NCBI RefSeq assembly: GCF_005869845.1
Contig: NZ_VAWF01000001.1
Span: forward strand, 1,674,001-1,738,000
Origin: Fodinibius saliphilus
GTDB taxonomy: Bacteria; Bacteroidota; Rhodothermia; Balneolales; Balneolaceae
Length of the DNA: 64,000 nucleotides
Direction: 5' to 3'
Both the position numbers and the translations under genes were made by a program. Shown here piece after piece: positions 1,576 through 13,209 of the stretch. Position 1 is the first letter of the stretch. Each line of letters starts with the position of its first letter. The notes beneath the pieces were generated by a model, which was not told the origin of the DNA, searched no databases, and saw only the letters and a program-made list of their open reading frames with translations.

Positions 1576-4029
1576 TTACTCATAAATAGGCGGGTACTTC
1601 GCCGGATTGGCTTCACTCATTAAAGCATAAACCGCCTCAAAGATATCCTCTTCATTAGGTTTGGAGAAGTAATCCCCATCGGAGCCGTAAGCTGCGCGGT
1701 GTTCTTTGGCCGTCAGGCACTGCGGCTCAGAATCGAGATAGTAGTACCCTTTCTGCTCCTGCAATACCTTGTTCATCATGAATGCCGATGCCCCGCCCGG
1801 CACGTCCTCATCGACAAAGAGAATGCGATTCGTTTTCTTGAGCGATTCTACAATATCGTGGTTGCGGTCGAAAGGTAAGAGCGTGCGCACATCAATGAGC
1901 TCTGCCGAGATACCTGCCTCTTCCAACTCCGGTAGTACCGACTCACAGATATTGCAGGTAGATCCATATGATACAATTGTGATATCAGATCCCTCAGAAA
2001 CGACCTTGGGAATACCCAGCGGTACCGTAAAATCACCTAAGTTATCGGGTTTATCCTCCTTCAAACGGTATGCGTTAAGTGGCTCGATAACGAGTGCCGG
2101 ATCATCACCTTGCAACAGTGTATTATACATCCCGGCGGCATCCGTCAGGTTGCGCGGTACACATACGTGCACACCACGTATCCCGTTGATAATCATACCC
2201 ATAGGCGATCCAGTGTGCCAGATGCCTTCAAGTCGGTGACCTCGCGTTCTCACAATAAGCGGAGCCTTCTGTCCGCCCATGCTGCGATAGCGTACCGTAG
2301 CAAGATCGTCACTTAATCCCTGGAAACAGTACAATAGGTAGTCGAGATACTGTATCTCGGCTATAGGCCGTAAGCCTCTTAGCGCCATTCCTATGCCCTG
2401 TCCAAGTATAGTAGCCTCACGGATACCGGTATCACGAACGCGGAGCTCTCCGAATTTATCCTGCATATTTTCGAGCCCCTTGTTTACATCTCCCAGCTTT
2501 CCGGTATCTTCCCCGAAGATCAGCGTTTCGGGATATTTTTCAAAAAGCTTGTCAAAGTTATCACGGAGTACCAAACGTCCATCAACACTTTCCGGATCAT
2601 CTGAATAAACAGGTTCTACCTCCTCGATATTCAGCGGTGACATATCCGTTTCGCTATATAAGTGACTATGATATCGATTGGTGTTGGCTTCATTATATTC
2701 ATTCAGCCACTGTCGGAGTTCACTCTTGCTATCTAATTGTTCACTACGCGTGATACGAAGTGCTTTACGAGCCCCAGTTACAATATATTTCCGGAGGGGA
2801 ATCAAGGGAGCTCCCATCTCCTTCTTTACTTGTTTAAGTGACTCACTATGGCTGCTTTCAGCAATTAGGTCATCCAATATGTTTTCTACTGACTGCAGTT
2901 CTCCTTTAAGTTCATCTTTAAACGATTTCCATGCTGCCTTCTGCGCCTCTTTTACCTCTTCCTTAGCCCTTTCTTCAAGAGCTTCCAGTTCCTCTTCCGA
3001 AGCAATACCTTCTTCAAGCAGCCAGTTACGAGTCTTATTGATACAGCAAAATTCTTCTTCCCATTCAAGACGTTCATCAGACTTATACCGTTCATGTGAA
3101 CCAGAGGTTGAGTGTCCTTGTGGCTGTGTAACTTCCTGAACATGAATCAGCACTGGCACATGTTCTTCTCGGGCAATCTGTTCTGCCTGGCTGTATGTCT
3201 GTAATAGCGCAGGATAATCCCAGGCATTAACAGTTAAAATCTCGAGTCCCTCTTGATCCTCAGTACGCTGAAAACCGGCTAACACCTCAGAAATACTATC
3301 TTTGGTAGTTTGATACTTACGAGGTACGGAAATTCCGTAGCCGTCATCCCAAACCGACATCACCATAGGTACCTGTAGTACACCGGCCGCGTTTATAGTC
3401 TCCCAAAAAACACCCTCAGAAGTACTGGCATCTCCAATAGTGCCCCATGCAATCTCATCTCCATTTTCAGAAAATCGCTGGAAGTCCTCGTCTTCTAAGA
3501 GTGATTCGTGGTTCCGATAGATTTCAGAAGCTTGGGCCAGTCCCAAAAGTCTAGACATCTGTCCTGCAGTTGGGGAAATATCCGGAGAGGTGTTCTTCAT
3601 CTCCGTCAAGTCTTTCCAACTGCCGTCATTATTAAGACTGCGCGTGCTAAAATGCGCATTCATCTGACGCCCCCCGGAATGGGGTTCCTCTTCCACATTG
3701 GCATGGGCGTAGAGCTGAGCAAAAAATTGTTGTACCGTCACTTGGCCAATAGCCATCATAAAGGTCTGATCTCTATAGTATCCCGACCGGAAATCACCAT
3801 TCTTAAAGTATTTGGCCATGGCTATCTGGGGAAGTTCTTTACCATCACCGAAAATCCCAAACTTGGCTTTCCCCGTTAGGGTTTCCTTCCGGCCAATATA
3901 GGAAGCTTCCCGGCTCTTTACCGCCAATTTGTAATCATCCAGAATCTCCTGTTTATAGTCATCGGTATAAGAACCGGATGCCAGTTGTGATGCCAGTGAT
4001 GTCTGCTCTTTTGTCTCTGTTTGTGCCAT
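1576..4029 (-). CDS. 2-oxo acid dehydrogenase E1, fused alpha and beta subunits
   Basis: This thiamine-diphosphate enzyme decarboxylates a 2-oxo acid (pyruvate or branched-chain 2-oxoisovalerate type) and passes the acyl group to a lipoyl E2. Residues up to about 450 form an E1-alpha domain with the TPP motif GDASTSEG...WDDGYGISVP. Residues from about 455 onward form an E1-beta domain (FGEDTGKLGDV, GIREATILGQGIGMA, HTGSPMG, GGASAFMMNKVLQ). Alpha and beta are separate proteins in most bacteria; the 817-residue fusion is known from Bacteroidota relatives. The last Asn of the canonical TPP motif is Asp here. It starts at ATG 4027-4029. No E2 or E3 gene is adjacent, so the substrate cannot be decided from context. 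Confidence 0.88.
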   Translation of the reverse strand: MAQTETKEQTSLASQLASGSYTDDYKQEILDDYKLAVKSREASYIGRKETLTGKAKFGIFGDGKELPQIAMAKYFKNGDFRSGYYRDQTFMMAIGQVTVQQFFAQLYAHANVEEEPHSGGRQMNAHFSTRSLNNDGSWKDLTEMKNTSPDISPTAGQMSRLLGLAQASEIYRNHESLLEDEDFQRFSENGDEIAWGTIGDASTSEGVFWETINAAGVLQVPMVMSVWDDGYGISVPRKYQTTKDSISEVLAGFQRTEDQEGLEILTVNAWDYPALLQTYSQAEQIAREEHVPVLIHVQEVTQPQGHSTSGSHERYKSDERLEWEEEFCCINKTRNWLLEEGIASEEELEALEERAKEEVKEAQKAAWKSFKDELKGELQSVENILDDLIAESSHSESLKQVKKEMGAPLIPLRKYIVTGARKALRITRSEQLDSKSELRQWLNEYNEANTNRYHSHLYSETDMSPLNIEEVEPVYSDDPESVDGRLVLRDNFDKLFEKYPETLIFGEDTGKLGDVNKGLENMQDKFGELRVRDTGIREATILGQGIGMALRGLRPIAEIQYLDYLLYCFQGLSDDLATVRYRSMGGQKAPLIVRTRGHRLEGIWHTGSPMGMIINGIRGVHVCVPRNLTDAAGMYNTLLQGDDPALVIEPLNAYRLKEDKPDNLGDFTVPLGIPKVVSEGSDITIVSYGSTCNICESVLPELEEAGISAELIDVRTLLPFDRNHDIVESLKKTNRILFVDEDVPGGASAFMMNKVLQEQKGYYYLDSEPQCLTAKEHRAAYGSDGDYFSKPNEEDIFEAVYALMSEANPAKYPPIYE

Positions 4030-5683: not shown

Positions 5684-6817
5684 TTACAGTTCTTTGCTGT
5701 ACATACGGTAGGTTTTCTCGATGTAGGCTCCCAGCCTTTCAGCAACTTGAATCATAGCCTTATTAGTTTCAAGTACCCAGCCAAGCTCTGAAGATTTATA
5801 TCCACCCTCTCTTGCATTAACAGTAGCCTCTTTGTGAAGTAGCGCGTCAATACCCTTACCTTGGTACTCTGGCAACACCCCCATCAAAGCTGTGCGCAAG
5901 CGATCAATATTTCTCTTGTGCCATAAGAATTTAAATATACCCGTGGGAAACAGCGTGCCATCCATATGATTTAATGCCTGATTGATATCAGGGAGTGCAA
6001 TAGAAAAAGCAATCGGTTTGCCATCGTCCTCAATGATATGAGCCAACTTGGGATCGATAATTAGTTTGAGATCCTTGGCAAGATCTGCAACCTCTTCTTC
6101 TTTTAGCGGGATGAACCCCCAGTTATTAGCCCATGCCTTATTAAAGATCTCTCGAACAATCTTTACTTCCTGTTCAATATTTTTAAGATCCACTTCCCGC
6201 ATTTTCAATTTCGGCAGGCGTCGCCGTACAATCTCTTCACCCCGGTACATCCTGTCCAGATTCATCTCACTTACTTTCTGGCGGTAGGCATACATATCCA
6301 TCTCTTTATCGAGACCAGTATTTTTAAGCAACCGATCATAATAGGGTTTATGATAGGGCATCATAATACTGGGATAATATTCAAACCCATCAACCAAGAT
6401 TCCAACCTCATCCATCATACTGGGGTTAGAAGGCCCCAGAATATCGGTATGGCCGCGTTCACGCAGCCAATCAGTAACTACCTTCACCAATAGGTCTGCT
6501 ACCGACTGATCGTCAATGCACTCAAAAAATCCAAAAAAACCGGTATTATTACCGTGATGCTTATTATACCGGCGATCTTGAATAGCTGCTATCCGCCCAC
6601 AAACCTCGCCATTTTTTTCGGCAAGAAATAAGGCTATGTTACCATCTTCATAAAAGGGATTGTTTTCCTCATCGATGAGTTTTTTTTGCTCCATCTTGAG
6701 AGGGGCAATCCATTTCTCATCGTCAGAATAGTGCTCGTACGGAAAGTTTATAAACTGCTTACGTTCCTTCTTGGTTGTAGCAAGGGTTATTCCATTTACC
6801 TGCTGTACGTCTTCCAC
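5684..6817 (-). CDS. GNAT-fold acyltransferase, YghO / bacterial ceramide synthase-like
   Basis: The 377-residue protein has a GNAT-type C-terminal half (GVLPEYQGKGIDALLHKEA resembles the acyl-CoA binding motif Q/RxxGxG/A) and a conserved N-terminal half ending in GPSNPSMMDEVGILVDGF. The overall pattern resembles the YghO family. From memory, a YghO-like protein acts as bacterial ceramide synthase (bCerS) in Caulobacter, N-acylating the 3-keto long-chain base made by serine palmitoyltransferase. The start is a GTG only 3 bp after the stop of the synthase gene, with an AAGGAG ribosome site inside the end of that gene, so the two are translationally coupled. The coupling supports a joint lipid role, but substrate specificity is inferred. 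Confidence 0.7.
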   Translation of the reverse strand: MEDVQQVNGITLATTKKERKQFINFPYEHYSDDEKWIAPLKMEQKKLIDEENNPFYEDGNIALFLAEKNGEVCGRIAAIQDRRYNKHHGNNTGFFGFFECIDDQSVADLLVKVVTDWLRERGHTDILGPSNPSMMDEVGILVDGFEYYPSIMMPYHKPYYDRLLKNTGLDKEMDMYAYRQKVSEMNLDRMYRGEEIVRRRLPKLKMREVDLKNIEQEVKIVREIFNKAWANNWGFIPLKEEEVADLAKDLKLIIDPKLAHIIEDDGKPIAFSIALPDINQALNHMDGTLFPTGIFKFLWHKRNIDRLRTALMGVLPEYQGKGIDALLHKEATVNAREGGYKSSELGWVLETNKAMIQVAERLGAYIEKTYRMYSKEL

Positions 6818-6820
6818 AAT

Positions 6821-8065
6821 TTACTCCTTTTCCAATAGCGAGTGGCCGTTCTGATCTATAATACCCTGTTCGATACCCACCTTGCGGAAAGCTTCTAAAA
6901 TTCTATTCAGATGGTCATCAGTATGTGTAGCCATATAACTGGTACGAACAAGAGACTGCCCGCGCGGTACACCCGGAGGCACAACCGCATTAACATACAC
7001 ACCTGCTTCGAAAAGACCTTTCCAAAACTCAAAGCAATCGATCATCTCACCGATTACAACAGGTATAATAGGTGTTTGGCTACTCCACACATTAAAACCC
7101 ATATCGCGAAGCGAGTTCCGCATGTAATCAGAAATCTCTGCAAGCCGATCAAGCCTCCATGTTTCTTCCTGAAGTATCTCTAGGGCTTTTAATACAGTAG
7201 CCACATTAGCAGGGGGCATAGATGCACTAAAAATATGTGCCGGTGAATTGTGGCGAATATACTCTATTACTTCATGGTCTCCTACCAGAAAGCCACCAAG
7301 CGATGCAAAAGACTTTGAAAAAGTTCCACTAATAAGATCAACCTCATCTATCAGACCATAAGTAGAAGCGGAACCACGTCCTCCTTCCCCTACAACCCCA
7401 ATAGCGTGGGCATCGTCAAGATATAAACGAGCACCAAATTCCTTTTTAAGCTCCACAAGTTTGTCAACTTTAGCTATTGTCCCCGACATGGAGAACACAC
7501 CATCACTCACAATAATCTTACCGGCCTCGCTGTCAGCTCTCTGCAGCAGTTTTTCCAGCTGTTCCAGGTCGTTATGTTGATATCGCATTGTCTTAGCATT
7601 AGAAACAAGCGTACCGGAAACAATACAAGCATGATTATCTTTATCAGAAAAAATAATATCTCGACGGCCGGCGATGGTTTGAATCGAACCTTCATTGGTT
7701 TGATAACCAGTACTGAAAAGAACACATGAATCTTTGTTCATGAATGCTGCGAGCTTCTCTTCAAGCTCTAAATGCAAATCAAGTGTTCCGTTCAAATAAC
7801 GAGATCCTGTGCATCCCGTTCCGTAGGTTTTTATAACATTACGGGCAGCTTCAATAACCCTGGGATCGTTTGTCAATCCTAAGTAATTATTGGAACCGGC
7901 CATAATAACTTCCCGTCCATCAATTTGAACGGTAGTACCATCAGTGGCTTGGAGAGGCTTAAAATAGGGATAAAGACCCTTTTCTTTAATTTCATCGGCT
8001 TTTGTAAAGTCATAAGCCTTTGAAAAAATATCGTTCGTTTTTACATCAGAATTGGAGTCGGCCAT
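6821..8065 (-). CDS. spt: Serine palmitoyltransferase-like alpha-oxoamine synthase
   Basis: This fold-type I PLP enzyme of the alpha-oxoamine synthase family condenses an amino acid with an acyl thioester. GTFSKSFASLGGFLVG near residue 250 contains the PLP lysine and fits the serine-palmitoyltransferase branch better than KBL or BioF. DDAHAIGVVGEGGRG carries the cofactor-binding Asp and His. At 414 residues it has the usual size of soluble bacterial SPT. It starts at ATG 8063-8065 with an AAAGGA upstream. Coupling to a YghO-like acyltransferase favours long-chain base synthesis from serine. A cysteate acyltransferase of sulfonolipid synthesis belongs to the same family and is the main alternative. 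Confidence 0.8.
   Translation of the reverse strand: MADSNSDVKTNDIFSKAYDFTKADEIKEKGLYPYFKPLQATDGTTVQIDGREVIMAGSNNYLGLTNDPRVIEAARNVIKTYGTGCTGSRYLNGTLDLHLELEEKLAAFMNKDSCVLFSTGYQTNEGSIQTIAGRRDIIFSDKDNHACIVSGTLVSNAKTMRYQHNDLEQLEKLLQRADSEAGKIIVSDGVFSMSGTIAKVDKLVELKKEFGARLYLDDAHAIGVVGEGGRGSASTYGLIDEVDLISGTFSKSFASLGGFLVGDHEVIEYIRHNSPAHIFSASMPPANVATVLKALEILQEETWRLDRLAEISDYMRNSLRDMGFNVWSSQTPIIPVVIGEMIDCFEFWKGLFEAGVYVNAVVPPGVPRGQSLVRTSYMATHTDDHLNRILEAFRKVGIEQGIIDQNGHSLLEKE
6824..6829 (-). promoter_or_regulatory. Shine-Dalgarno site coupling the synthase and acyltransferase genes
   Basis: On the minus strand AAGGAG lies in the last codons of the PLP synthase gene, six bases before the GTG start of the acyltransferase. 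It decides the non-ATG start and implies coupled translation. Confidence 0.7.
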
Positions 8066-8171
8066 TCGTCCTTTTTTCGGCTTTTTGAAAAGTGCTTATC
8101 AACGTAAATATACTTCCATATTAAGCATCAATCAAATTATGAATAAGATATTATAAATCTTGATACTAAAC

Positions 8172-9293
8172 TCAGAAGTGCTGTGCTATAGTTTCTAAAT
8201 AGTCAACATATTGCTGTGATACATGTTGCCAACTAAACTGTTCCTGTACATAGTTACGGCTATTCTTTGAAAATTGTTCCAACGGGCCACTTAATATTTC
8301 TTCAATCTTTTCGGCAAATAGATCTGCGTTTAAAGGTGGCACACGATACCCATTTTTTCCCTGACCAATTACATCTTTAATACCTTCCAGGTTGGCAGCA
8401 ACTGCTGGATTTTCTGCCATATTAGCTTCCAACAATACAATACCAAACCCTTCCATGTCTCCCGGTACCGGAATATTAGGCATCACAAATAGATCTGCCG
8501 CAGCATATGCTTGTTTTAGCACTTCATCGGGCTGTCGCCCCAGAATGAAAATCCGATCACTAAATGAAGATCCTTCAGCAGCTTTGGTGATATTATCAAA
8601 CTCTGGCCCATCACCTACAGTTACATACACCATCTGCTTATTAAGCTTAGGCATTACCTCACGTATAAACCACTCATGGCCTTTTCTCTTAACCATACGA
8701 CCAACAGTGAGCAACATCCTGTGACTCTCCAACGGAATTCTGAAGTTCTCCTGCAGGCGATTTCGTGCTTTTTTCTTATCCGGAAAATTATTCAACTTAT
8801 TAAAATCGAACCCATTGGGCAGTGCAACTCCTTTTTCAGGATCCATCCCACGTGCAATACACTCCTCACGGGTAGCCCTGGAGACTGAAATCACACCATC
8901 GAGATTATCAAAAATCTTGGGCACAAACCATTGATAAGCCCGTACTGGGAGGGTAACATCTCTCCCATGATTAATGGTAACCATCGGCACCGATATTTTA
9001 TGGCGAATAAAAAACGCCAGACTTGCTGTTACCATCGAAGAAAAAAGGATGATATCTGCATCTGACTCGCGAACTTTATGAGGTAAGCTCACTATTTGTT
9101 TCAGTAGAAAACCAATGGTTTGTAAAGCGATTTTTCCTTTTTCAGAAACATTAATTGTTTCAGTGATCACGTCTACTGATTCTTTACGCTTCAGTTCTTG
9201 AATCAACTGCTGACTTACCCGCTGCATACCACCTACATTTTCAAGGATCTCTCCTTCAGGCGGATGGGTATGAGAAACATATAGTATTCGCAC
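8172..9293 (-). CDS. GT4-family glycosyltransferase
   Basis: This cytosolic GT-B glycosyltransferase has an N-terminal acceptor domain starting RILYVSHTHPPEGE with a GG loop (NVGGMQRVS), and a nucleotide-sugar domain with TVGRMVKRKGHEWFI and the E-x7-E motif EGFGIVLLE. At 373 residues it is typical of GT4 retaining enzymes. The start is GTG 9291-9293 with an AAAGG upstream. A second GT4 gene lies 25 bp upstream in the same operon, and the PLP synthase follows after 106 bp. Position suggests a lipid acceptor such as a ceramide or diacylglycerol, but sugar and acceptor cannot be read from sequence. Confidence 0.85.
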   Translation of the reverse strand: MRILYVSHTHPPEGEILENVGGMQRVSQQLIQELKRKESVDVITETINVSEKGKIALQTIGFLLKQIVSLPHKVRESDADIILFSSMVTASLAFFIRHKISVPMVTINHGRDVTLPVRAYQWFVPKIFDNLDGVISVSRATREECIARGMDPEKGVALPNGFDFNKLNNFPDKKKARNRLQENFRIPLESHRMLLTVGRMVKRKGHEWFIREVMPKLNKQMVYVTVGDGPEFDNITKAAEGSSFSDRIFILGRQPDEVLKQAYAAADLFVMPNIPVPGDMEGFGIVLLEANMAENPAVAANLEGIKDVIGQGKNGYRVPPLNADLFAEKIEEILSGPLEQFSKNSRNYVQEQFSWQHVSQQYVDYLETIAQHF

Positions 9294-9318
9294 GTTGTAA
9301 CCTTTTATTCCTTTAATA

Positions 9319-10473
9319 CTAAAATTTGAGTGCAGGGCGGGGTTCTTCTAATGCTTTGTAATAATTATCAAGCAACTTCCCGTTTACATTTTCCCAAGAG
9401 TACGCAATAGCTTTTTGACGAGCTGCTTCTCCCATCTCCTGCCACAGCTCCCCATCATCTGCTAACCTGGCTACACATTTAGCAAAAGCTTTAGTATCTC
9501 TCGGAGGAGCCAAGAAACCGTTAACACCAGACTCTACCAATGATCGGCTTCCTGTAGCATCAGCTACCACACAAGGTAAACCGCTGGACATTGCTTCGAG
9601 AGTTACATTGCCAAATGTTTCAGTCTCGGAAGGAAATAAAAATATATCACTGCTGGCATAAGCACGGCTCAGCTCATCCCCGGTTACAAAACCGGTAAAA
9701 TGTGCTTCTGGCAACATATGTTCCAATTCCTTTTTAGCAGGCCCATCACCCACTATCATCGATTTAATATTATCATGGGTCTGCTGTAATCTTTTAACCG
9801 TATCTACAAAAGTTTGTAAATTCTTTTCCCAAACAAGTCGTGATACAAATGTCACAACCTTATCATCATCTTTGAAACCCACCGACCGCCGCCATTCCAT
9901 ATCCCTATAATCGGGATTAAAATCATCTGTATTTACACCTCGTGCCCATATTCGAATTCCTTCGTCAATCCCTTCTTCGTTTAGTTCATCAGCCATTGAA
10001 GGTGAAGGCACATAGATATGTTTACACTGACTATAGAACCATCCCAAATATTTCCACCCCAGTAATTTCAGCATCTCTAAATTGTAATACTTTAGATAAC
10101 TGGTAAAATGGGTATGATAGGAAGCCACAATCTGAATATTATTAGCCTGCCCCCACCGCATTGCCCGAAAACCAAGCACATCGGGTGTGGCAAGATGAAT
10201 AAGCGTCGGATTAAATTCCCGCAGTCTCTTTTGTGCTTTTTCTGGAAACCCTACCGTTATACGATATTCGGGACGTCCCGGCACCGGCACCGAAGGTACA
10301 GGAACAAACTCTCCTTCATGATCAATTTCTGGCTCATCTATGGTGGGACCAAACACAATTACCGGAATATTTTTCTCTTCCAGGAAAGCTACCAGCCTAT
10401 TTAGCGTAAGTGATACGCCATCTTGAATATGATTATAATTTCCAGTGAATATCGCTACTCGAAGATCACTCAT
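9319..10473 (-). CDS. GT4-family glycosyltransferase, SqdX/MgtA-like
   Basis: The 384-residue GT-B enzyme begins VAIFTGNYNHIQDGVSLTLNRLV, the pattern of the SQD2/SqdX and MgtA branch of GT4, which transfers sugars to lipids. It has HTHFTSYL in the acceptor domain, VSRLVWEKNL at the domain junction and the E-x7-E motif ETFGNVTLE in the donor site. It is the first gene of the run toward the sphingolipid-type genes and diverges from the reductase gene at 10671 across about 200 bp. I infer that it glycosylates the lipid made by the neighbouring genes; glycoglycerolipid synthesis is the alternative. Confidence 0.85.
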   Translation of the reverse strand: MSDLRVAIFTGNYNHIQDGVSLTLNRLVAFLEEKNIPVIVFGPTIDEPEIDHEGEFVPVPSVPVPGRPEYRITVGFPEKAQKRLREFNPTLIHLATPDVLGFRAMRWGQANNIQIVASYHTHFTSYLKYYNLEMLKLLGWKYLGWFYSQCKHIYVPSPSMADELNEEGIDEGIRIWARGVNTDDFNPDYRDMEWRRSVGFKDDDKVVTFVSRLVWEKNLQTFVDTVKRLQQTHDNIKSMIVGDGPAKKELEHMLPEAHFTGFVTGDELSRAYASSDIFLFPSETETFGNVTLEAMSSGLPCVVADATGSRSLVESGVNGFLAPPRDTKAFAKCVARLADDGELWQEMGEAARQKAIAYSWENVNGKLLDNYYKALEEPRPALKF

Positions 10474-10670
10474 AAATTTTCCAATACATCATTGATATTT
10501 GTATCTTAACCTTGCTTTTAGCAAGCGCAATTTGAACCAACTAATAACTATAATGTAATCAACATTTATATGTTAATGGCTGGCAGTTTTGCAATGCTGA
10601 TTTATATTCAGCTAAAATAAAAGTATATATAATAACACAGTTAATTAAGGGCCCAAATATACAAAATTTG

Positions 10671-11645
10671 ATGAAAGCCTTCGTAACCGGCGGAACAGGT
10701 TTTATTGGAAGTCACTTAGCTGATCATTTAATTGAGTCAAACAAGTACTCAGAGGTACGATGCCTGATTCGAAGTAATGAAAAGTGGCTGAAAGGAAAAC
10801 ATTTTAAACGTATTAATGGAGATTTAGATGACTTGGCTGTGCTTAAAAAAGCAGTTGAGGGAGTCGATGTCATCTTTCATATCGCGGGACGGGTTAAGGC
10901 ACCTACTTATGCCGACCTTGCCCATGCTAATGTTGAAGCTACTGAAAACCTTTTACGGATAGCTCAAAAAGAGGGAGTCCCAAAAATTGTAGTACTCTCT
11001 TCCCTTGCTGCAGTAGGGCCCAGCAAAAATGAACCTATAAGCGAAGATGCACCGATGAATCCCATCAGTAATTATGGGAAGTCAAAAAAACAGATGGAGC
11101 TTGTGATACACGACATCGCTAACGAAGAAACCTCCATTACGATCCTACGTCCACCCGCTGTGTATGGACCCCGCGAAGACCAAATTTACTCCTTTTTTAA
11201 AATGGCTGACAAACGCATATGCCCCATTATCGGTGATGGTAAACGACCACGCATATCAATGATATATGTAGGCGATGTTGTGAATGGAATACTCGATGCA
11301 GTTAAACAACAAGAAAAAGGGGTATTTACCTATTTCATTTCAGATGATAATATTCATACCTGGGATGAAATTCGTGGAACTACAGCTAAGGTTTTGGGTA
11401 AGAAATCTGTACCCATTTATATTAAGCCTAAGTTTGTTAAAAATATTGCTAAAACAGTTGAAAAAGCTGCATCATTTTTTGGGATTTATCCCGTTTTAAA
11501 CAGGGAAAAAGCGAAGGAGCTGATTCTGGAATGGACCTGCTCCAGCGAAAAAGCCAAAAACGAACTCGGTTTTCATCCCGAATACTCGCTTGGCGAAGGA
11601 ATTTCTCGAACAATTCACTGGTACCAAAGACACCATTGGTTATAA
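10671..11645 (+). CDS. Extended-SDR NAD(P)-dependent epimerase/dehydratase, possible ceramide reductase
   Basis: The N-terminal Rossmann motif TGGTGFIGSHL and the active-site NYGKSKKQME (YxxxK) mark an extended short-chain dehydrogenase. The serine of the triad falls near VLSSLAAVG. The 324-residue length fits NAD-dependent epimerases and reductases such as 3-beta-HSD-like enzymes. ATG 10671 is preferred over the in-frame TTG just before it. From memory, the Caulobacter 3-ketoceramide reductase CerR is annotated as an NAD-dependent epimerase/dehydratase, so with the PLP synthase and YghO-like enzyme divergently nearby this is a plausible CerR equivalent. A sugar epimerase serving the glycosyltransferases is possible too. 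Confidence 0.8.
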   Translation: MKAFVTGGTGFIGSHLADHLIESNKYSEVRCLIRSNEKWLKGKHFKRINGDLDDLAVLKKAVEGVDVIFHIAGRVKAPTYADLAHANVEATENLLRIAQKEGVPKIVVLSSLAAVGPSKNEPISEDAPMNPISNYGKSKKQMELVIHDIANEETSITILRPPAVYGPREDQIYSFFKMADKRICPIIGDGKRPRISMIYVGDVVNGILDAVKQQEKGVFTYFISDDNIHTWDEIRGTTAKVLGKKSVPIYIKPKFVKNIAKTVEKAASFFGIYPVLNREKAKELILEWTCSSEKAKNELGFHPEYSLGEGISRTIHWYQRHHWL

Positions 11646-11649
11646 TTCT

Positions 11650-13209
11650 ATGAATAGATTTTTGTCCGTACTATTTTGCCTATTATTCTTAACTTTTAGC
11701 CAACTCACAACAGCCCAACCAACACTTGAAAAGGATTATTCCTATGTGATGGAAATACCATCTGTCGTTACTATGGGAAGCTCCCCTGCTCACCTCTATG
11801 TACTTTCAGATACCGAAGGCATGGCCGTTTTCCGGACACAAAAAGATAGTTTGCAATGGCTGTATTCTTCTACCGGGATGGCACAGCGCGGAAGTACAAT
11901 GACAGCTGATATTCGCTTTGCTTACCTTTTTGGCAATAACAGACGGCTTACAGTTCTGGAGCCAACCTCGGTGCTCGGAGTCTATTCCGCCACGCTCTTA
12001 CCTTCAAATCCGTTAGATGCTCAACGCATCGGCCAGAGTTTATATGTTGCTCTTGGTGATAAAGGCCTGGGAAGACTCTCTCTTGAAACACCGAGCACTG
12101 TTGATTCTATGGTTACCTTTGTAAGCCGCTCAAAACTAAGTAACACCTATATTCAGGATATTGAAAAAACAGGCAACCAGCTTTTTGCACTCTCACGAAA
12201 TCAAACCCTTTTTCAGTTTAAGCACGATACCGAAGATAACATTACAACCCTGGAACGTGAATTTGCGCTCTCAAGGCCATTAAGTAAGATTTTTCTTGTT
12301 AACAAAACGTTATACGGTTCTGATGCGGATGGCAACATCTATGAAATTGACCAGCAGGGTAACTTAGCGGGACTCGGTAGCATTGGTGAGACCGTTAATA
12401 AAATTGAGGCCTGGAAAGATTGGCTTATCATCAGCGGAAGCTCTAACAGAATATGGACATCCTATAAAAATCGCAGCCCTAATCTTTGGAAAGAAGATCG
12501 TGAAGCGGGCAACTATTTCACTGTTAGCGGCGGAACCTTATGGTTGTGTGAGTATAACCAGCTAAGTAAAATTATTACTTCTGATAAAAAGTCGATATCG
12601 CAGAAGAAAAATCCCCAACCCAACTTTTCAGGTAATTTAGAACTAAAATCGATATCAAATCAGGATATTCCGCATACGAAACCACTTCTTACCCCCATTA
12701 ATTTTACTACGGAGGTACCGGCTAATGCGGTAAAAATCACCTACCAATCTCAAGACATTAGTAATGCCCAGGTGCGAGGAAGAAGCTTTTACTGGCGTCC
12801 AAGTTCCAATGATATAGGACGGCATACGGTAAAGATTATTGCCACTACCAGTAGTAGCCAGACCGACAGCACCTCGTTTACCATTAATGTACGATCCTTT
12901 AATGCACCACCTCGGTTTGCCCCTATTCGCCCTATTACAATTCCTGTGGGTGAAGCCTTTACCCTGCCTATTCAGGCAAATGATCCTGATGGATCAACAA
13001 AAAATCTTGTTCGCTTTCTTGGGGTAGATATGCCGGATGGGGCAACCATCGACGAGTCTACCGGCGAATTTAACTGGACACCCAAAGCCCGCCAGGTGGG
13101 TAAAAACCGTTTTCGTGTCATTGCTACAGATCAATACGGTGCTGCTAAATCGGTAGATATCACTATCAACGTGATTGAACGTATTGACCGCGGTACCTCA
13201 GATAGCTAA
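11650..13209 (+). CDS. Secreted beta-propeller-like protein with C-terminal Ig/cadherin-like domain
   Basis: I do not recognise the full protein. From ATG 11650 it has a clean signal peptide (MNRFLSVLFCLLFLTFSQLTTAQ). The frame is open further upstream, but that part overlaps the reductase gene. Residues to about 340 contain repeated strands such as YVLSDTEGMAVF, LYVALGDKGLGRL and LYGSDADGNIYEID, typical of propeller blades. Residues 430-515 form a putative Ig domain (PPRFAPIRPITIPVGEAF, NDPDGS, STGEFNWTPKARQVG). It starts 4 bp after the reductase stop, so the two are cotranscribed. It probably acts in the periplasm or at the cell surface. Confidence 0.75.
   Translation: MNRFLSVLFCLLFLTFSQLTTAQPTLEKDYSYVMEIPSVVTMGSSPAHLYVLSDTEGMAVFRTQKDSLQWLYSSTGMAQRGSTMTADIRFAYLFGNNRRLTVLEPTSVLGVYSATLLPSNPLDAQRIGQSLYVALGDKGLGRLSLETPSTVDSMVTFVSRSKLSNTYIQDIEKTGNQLFALSRNQTLFQFKHDTEDNITTLEREFALSRPLSKIFLVNKTLYGSDADGNIYEIDQQGNLAGLGSIGETVNKIEAWKDWLIISGSSNRIWTSYKNRSPNLWKEDREAGNYFTVSGGTLWLCEYNQLSKIITSDKKSISQKKNPQPNFSGNLELKSISNQDIPHTKPLLTPINFTTEVPANAVKITYQSQDISNAQVRGRSFYWRPSSNDIGRHTVKIIATTSSSQTDSTSFTINVRSFNAPPRFAPIRPITIPVGEAFTLPIQANDPDGSTKNLVRFLGVDMPDGATIDESTGEFNWTPKARQVGKNRFRVIATDQYGAAKSVDITINVIERIDRGTSDS

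Follow-up and report, generated by a model that had tools for sequence, protein, structure and literature searches.

A 64,000-nucleotide stretch of the Fodinibius saliphilus genome (contig NZ_VAWF01000001.1, positions 1,674,001 to 1,738,000), here called the window, carries a compact, conserved five-gene cluster that is very probably a ceramide locus, and probably one for glycosylceramide. The predicted ceramide core consists of a serine palmitoyltransferase (SPT), a tandem GNAT of the YghO/bCerS family and a CerR-type extended short-chain dehydrogenase/reductase (SDR), accompanied by two GT4 glycosyltransferases, GTa and GTb. A preliminary description of the DNA had given these five genes in the same order and on the same strands, with the SDR divergent and of the extended type, and both the open reading frames and the Pfam domains agree with it:

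5684..6817, minus strand: GNAT, YghO/bCerS-family tandem, predicted ceramide synthase (N-acyltransferase on a 3-keto long-chain base); from Pfam Acetyltransf_1, clade and fold model.
6821..8065, minus strand: SPT; from Pfam Aminotran_1_2, best PDB match, Ala281 and tree.
8172..9293, minus strand: GTa, a GT4 glycosyltransferase predicted to transfer the second sugar; from Pfam Glycos_transf_1/Glyco_transf_4, E-x7-E motif and synteny.
9319..10473, minus strand: GTb, a GT4 glycosyltransferase predicted to add the first sugar to ceramide; from Pfam Glycos_transf_1/Glyco_transf_4, E-x7-E motif and distribution.
10474..10670, no strand: intergenic region from which the GT-SPT-GNAT operon and the SDR gene diverge; from reading-frame coordinates.
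10671..11645, plus strand: extended SDR, predicted CerR-type reductase of 3-keto-ceramide or a 3-keto long-chain base; from Pfam Epimerase/3Beta_HSD, motifs and CerR profile.

The pyridoxal phosphate (PLP)-dependent enzyme of the locus is, by its sequence, an SPT. Its best match in the PDB was the Sphingobacterium SPT (408 bits), compared with up to 294 bits for Sphingomonas-type SPT and KBL or KBL-like proteins, 231 bits for a cysteate acyltransferase (CFAT; 28eh), 225 bits for SulA (7u7h) and up to 196 bits for BioF. The top NCBIfam model was SerpalmtaseCFB (496 bits). In the tree the enzyme fell among the SPTs of Bacteroidota, with the CFATs in a clade of their own (support 100) and KBL and BioF separate. 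The enzyme has the catalytic Lys, Asp and His (K251, D217 and H220), all three invariant across the SPT alignment. The SPT group and active-site pattern are shared with the Sphingobacterium multivorum SPT (PDB 3A2B/8GUH) and with SPT of the Bacteroides/Prevotella type. The closest named SPT loci belong to Balneolaceae/Balneolales, at 75-79% identity.

A single residue bears on the distinction from sulfonolipid synthesis, since SulA is reported to have Lys281 where SPT has Ala (PMC9304779). In our alignment all 41 CFATs have Lys in this column; of the 66 SPTs, 65 have Ala, among them the window protein, whose A281 lies in the PLP-phosphate loop. The preliminary description had put forward a glycosylated sulfonolipid as the main alternative, with a PLP enzyme that acts as cysteate acyltransferase (SulA/CFAT) and a capnine lipid carrying sugars as the product. 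Sulfonolipids are characteristic lipids of Bacteroidota, and the window enzyme has the alpha-oxoamine synthase superfamily, fold and PLP residues in common with SulA/CFAT of Alistipes, Chryseobacterium and Flavobacterium. Against this stand the alanine at position 281, the much higher score with SPT and the placement in a different clade. Furthermore, a CFAT-type enzyme with Lys at 281 is encoded on another contig of the same genome (C2:472630-473862; L066:6631-7866, plus strand) and falls in the CFAT clade. The sulfonolipid alternative therefore belongs to a different locus, and for the window it is now disfavoured to the point of being very improbable.

The genome of the host encodes four alpha-oxoamine synthases: the window SPT, a KBL, a BioF and the CFAT-type enzyme. 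A role in primary metabolism, as KBL, BioF or another alpha-oxoamine synthase, might be read from the identity of the window enzyme to the host KBL (about 36%) and BioF (about 31%). However, both genuine enzymes are encoded away from the window, KBL being followed by a threonine-dehydrogenase-like SDR, and SPT is accompanied by SDR and GNAT genes across the phylum. A grouping with KBL or BioF had been named beforehand as the outcome that would count against SPT; the tree placed the enzyme with the SPTs instead and, together with the separate KBL and BioF genes, makes this identity hardly credible.

Outside the family of the host, SPT and CFAT are nearly exclusive of each other in the Bacteroidota sample (87 genomes with SPT only, 32 with CFAT only, three with both and seven with neither), whereas each of the 19 genomes sampled from the window's family has both.

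The GNAT is, as part of the ceramide core, a strongly supported prediction for the ceramide synthase. It aligns over its full length with E. coli YghO and with the GNAT of a Sphingomonas SPT cluster (35-36% identity), and is less similar to two paralogs of its own genome (29% and 26%). Phylogenetic placement inside the YghO/bCerS clade (support 100/100), apart from the clade of the paralog GNATp26, upheld the earlier view of a YghO-like enzyme; a position outside that clade was not observed. No relative was found in the PDB by sequence search. An AlphaFold model built with 56 sequences (pLDDT 92) showed a tandem GNAT fold, for which the best PDB matches were tandem GNATs (7q3a with Z 25.3 over 306 residues at 3.4 A); N-myristoyltransferases matched at Z 16. 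These matches are consistent with N-acylation, but give the fold rather than the substrate. On plasmids of E. coli PN43, Klebsiella and Pseudomonas veronii, yghO lies beside genes for a fatty acyl-AMP ligase, an NAD-dependent epimerase, an acyl carrier protein and SPT (aasR-cerR-acpR-spt), several of them annotated only as hypothetical in the P. veronii record. This gene set is that of Caulobacter (PMC11324152).

The predicted role of the SDR as a CerR-type reductase is likewise strongly supported as part of the core. A profile of four cluster-defined CerRs gave it by far the highest score among the proteins of the host, 127.8 bits against 56.5 for the runner-up, in keeping with the epimerase-type CerR that the preliminary description had proposed. 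The protein contains the Rossmann motif TGGTGFIG (TGxxGxxG) and the motif YGKSK (YxxxK). Its start is likelier the ATG at 10671 than the listed TTG at 10668, one codon earlier. The hopanoid epimerase HpnA was rejected as an identity (137 bits against a cut-off of 368); proteobacterial CerRs, too, match HpnA best.

Co-occurrence and gene adjacency tie the three core genes together. Among 148 Bacteroidota genomes, whose counts are phylogenetically non-independent, SPT and the SDR occur together in 108 of the 110 that have either (1+1 alone, 38 with neither), and SPT and the GNAT in 107 of 111 (2+2 alone, 37 with neither). The SDR adjoins SPT in Bacteroides/Prevotella-like and other families, such labels being derived from gene content and the size of the group; the Bacteroides/Prevotella-like genomes differ from the window in that the GNAT is unlinked and no glycosyltransferases lie between the genes. 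A scan with the SPT alignment found the SDR next to SPT also in Ignavibacteria, Zixibacteria, Calditrichia, Chloroherpetonaceae and Myxococcales; the order SDR-SPT-GNAT was seen in Ignavibacteria, Zixibacteria, Calditrichia and others, and all three genes are adjacent in Myxococcales as well. SPT-GNAT-SDR operons were present on actinobacterial plasmids of Rubrobacter and Streptomyces (L168, L295), which suggests that sphingolipid genes reside on secondary replicons in Actinomycetota. Closer to the host, the gene order fumC-GNAT-SPT-GTa-GTb-[SDR]-Ig protein-mutY recurs, local losses apart, in 22 relatives from five families of the order; GTa is absent from one of these families (f3). Because the order is retained across this range, the arrangement is not due to chance.

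Taking together the SPT identity, the GNAT clade, the SDR profile, the co-occurrence and the adjacency of the triple, we interpret the locus as a module for ceramide synthesis that in Balneolales has acquired two inserted GT4 genes. Phylogeny, the diagnostic residue, the profile search and co-occurrence lend strong support to the core of SPT, YghO/bCerS-type GNAT and CerR-type SDR, which we consider very likely. Several observations weigh against this reading. The SPT score of 496 bits stays below the SerpalmtaseCFB equivalog cut-off of 640. A tree with other extended SDRs does not gather all SPT-linked SDRs and CerR in one clade, although such a clade was not rejected (AU p 0.083, AU being the approximately unbiased test) in a tree with long branches and long-branched outgroups; linkage to SPT is stronger evidence for the role of the SDR than its tree. 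Shared ancestry confounds the co-occurrence counts. In Rhodothermales (L126-L137, L349-L374), SPT and GNAT are mostly paired, and the SDR and GTb are encoded away from SPT. Finally, Bacteroides has a different enzyme, the classical SDR BT_0972, that reduces 3-ketosphinganine in vitro (PMC9278070).

In the pathway that these enzymes would form, SPT would condense L-serine with a fatty acyl thioester, probably an acyl-CoA, the donor reported in other Bacteroidota, and so form 3-ketosphinganine. The tandem GNAT encoded next to it would then attach a second acyl chain to the amine, and the divergent SDR would reduce the 3-keto group to give (dihydro)ceramide. GTb would most likely add the first sugar and GTa the second. 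Whereas the enzyme families and the SPT/GNAT/SDR linkage can be read from the genes, which of acylation and reduction comes first, what donates the acyl group and what accepts the sugars are proposals. The closest described counterpart is Caulobacter crescentus (Spt, bCerS and CerR; CC_1162, CC_1154, CC_1164; Sgt1/Sgt2), which has the same SPT, YghO/bCerS GNAT and CerR-type extended SDR (PMC11087976, PMC11324152), and in which two sequential transferases act on ceramide (PMC6445935), a likeness to the two window glycosyltransferases that depends on their presumed acceptor. Unlike in Caulobacter, no dedicated AcpR or AasR genes were found at the window locus, the glycosyltransferase genes share an operon with those for SPT and the GNAT instead of having a locus of their own, and the SPT belongs to the Bacteroidota group.

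The sequence of steps may differ from the one just given. Caulobacter acylates before it reduces (PMC11087976), whereas BT_0972 acts on 3-ketosphinganine in vitro, so the order in Balneolales could be either; acylation first is not something a sequence reveals. In a eukaryote-like order the SDR, or an SDR of the BT_0972 type, would reduce 3-ketosphinganine first and the GNAT would then acylate sphinganine. Besides the activity of BT_0972, the N-terminus of the window SDR is compatible with this, as it opens with the Rossmann strand and shows no obvious signal peptide, which a periplasmic CerR of the Caulobacter type might need. This point is weakened by the E. coli and Sphingomonas CerRs, whose N-termini likewise lack one. 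Since the SDR that accompanies SPT across Bacteroidota is of the extended CerR type and not a classical SDR, and given the Caulobacter precedent, we regard reduction before acylation as possible but rather unlikely.

The remaining part of the proposal is glycosylation. Both glycosyltransferases carry the E-x7-E motif (EGFGIVLLE in GTa, ETFGNVTLE in GTb). GT4 folds do not discriminate acceptors. GTb orthologs (E <= 1e-55) were found in 72 of 109 genomes with SPT and in one of 39 without it, and that one carries an SPT-type GNAT and has SPT-containing relatives. They occur in all Rhodothermia sampled, with more distant ones in Bacteroides-like genomes. In all five Balneolales families sampled, GTb lies between the SDR and SPT, that is, within a triple that is otherwise widespread. 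Because the Rhodothermales SDR and GTb are unlinked to SPT, linkage of the glycosyltransferases to SPT is specific to Balneolales.

The glycosyltransferases might instead act on diacylglycerol, phosphatidylglycerol or a cell-surface glycan and merely be co-transcribed with a correctly assigned ceramide core. The closest named models for GTb, GlcN-phosphatidylglycerol synthase, BshA and monoglucosyl-diacylglycerol synthase, would fit such acceptors, although all score below cut-off, as would the location of the Rhodothermales orthologs away from SPT. The near absence of GTb from genomes lacking SPT and its place inside the Balneolales triple argue against another acceptor. Moreover, GT4 is the retaining family to which known ceramide as well as diacylglycerol glycosyltransferases belong, among them the Bacteroides fragilis alpha-GalCer synthase BF9343_3149, which acts on ceramide (PMC9692976). 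That enzyme has Asp for the first Glu of E-x7-E, while GTa and GTb both have Glu. An acceptor other than ceramide thus appears a minority possibility. From the GT4 ceramide glycosyltransferases, the Caulobacter pair and the GTb distribution, ceramide is the best guess, and its glycosylation by the window enzymes is suggested, with slight preference, by position, family and distribution. A broader statement, that the ceramide core is joined by some sugar addition to ceramide or a related lipid, can be made with reasonable confidence. The complete glycosylceramide route envisaged in the preliminary description is thus strongly supported as to its ceramide core, by phylogeny, residue, profile and co-occurrence, and is a qualified proposal as to its sugars.

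Within the operon, 3 nt separate the stop codon of SPT from the GNAT start, and an AAGGAG motif overlaps that stop codon. With this spacing and motif, the translational coupling of the two genes that had been asserted earlier is plausible; the gap and motif themselves are present.

Other genes were noted around the locus. A gene for a protein with a C-terminal Ig-like (He_PIG) domain (11590-13209, plus strand) separates the SDR from mutY in almost every Balneolales neighbourhood that was examined. Its reading frame overlaps the SDR, so translation probably starts further downstream than the listed TTG. A fused E1 alpha/beta 2-oxoacid dehydrogenase of 817 amino acids (1576-4029, minus strand), encoded downstream of the fumC-like gene, is retained in most of the window's family, with weaker matches (about 30%) at this place in other families of the order. 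Salinibacter is known for an unusual sulfonolipid; an SPT-GNAT pair is present in Salinibacter altiplanensis (L358), and no close CFAT was found in the Rhodothermales genomes sampled.

The paralogs of the GNAT provide a lead on the sulfonolipid pathway. The second YghO-like GNAT of the host, GNATp26 (C3:403375-404499; L064:7376-8503, plus strand), has orthologs convergent with CFAT in seven Flavobacteriaceae-like neighbourhoods (L229, L230, L233, L248, L253, L257, L258) and, by coordinates, beside CFAT in an eighth such genome (G171). Six of these CFAT-adjacent GNATs were included in the tree and grouped with GNATp26 in one clade. The enzymes reported for sulfonolipid synthesis are a cysteate synthase, CFAT and a ketoreductase, with no N-acyltransferase identified therein (PMC11211663, PMC9304779). 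The GNATp26 clade is a candidate only for the sulfonolipid (capnine) N-acyltransferase. A strict pairing was rejected, as 23 of 34 GNATp26 carriers have CFAT and 11 do not, and many CFAT carriers lack GNATp26; in one genome (G070) a GNAT of this clade lies beside SPT, against a pairing with CFAT. That the YghO-like family provides the N-acyltransferase of each of the two long-chain-base pathways in Bacteroidota, with the SPT-linked clade active in ceramide formation and its sister clade in capnine N-acylation, is accordingly a tentative idea. If true, the host would operate a ceramide and a sulfonolipid pathway in parallel, with a separate GNAT for each. A third YghO-like paralog, GNATp31 (C1:1623596-1624735; L063:7594-8736, minus strand; 29-31% identity to the window GNAT), occurs in part of the window's family, with distant forms in a few other Bacteroidota; no clear link to CFAT or SPT was found for it.

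The enzymes of the locus are of known kinds and the core pathway is known. What is new is the compact arrangement in Balneolales and the tie of the SDR and GNAT to SPT across Bacteroidota. Our search, with narrow literature coverage, found no lipidomic report for Balneolales, and Fodinibius species have been described with only unidentified glycolipids and aminolipids (PMC12260241). The separate CFAT gene and the second YghO-like clade together offer a testable candidate for the last sulfonolipid enzyme. The association of a CerR-type SDR, SPT and GNAT as one linked module extends well beyond Proteobacteria, and it bears on which reductase and N-acyltransferase Bacteroidota use, BT_0972 and CerR having both been proposed. 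For the order itself, the locus predicts sphingolipids, probably glycosylceramides, throughout Balneolales.

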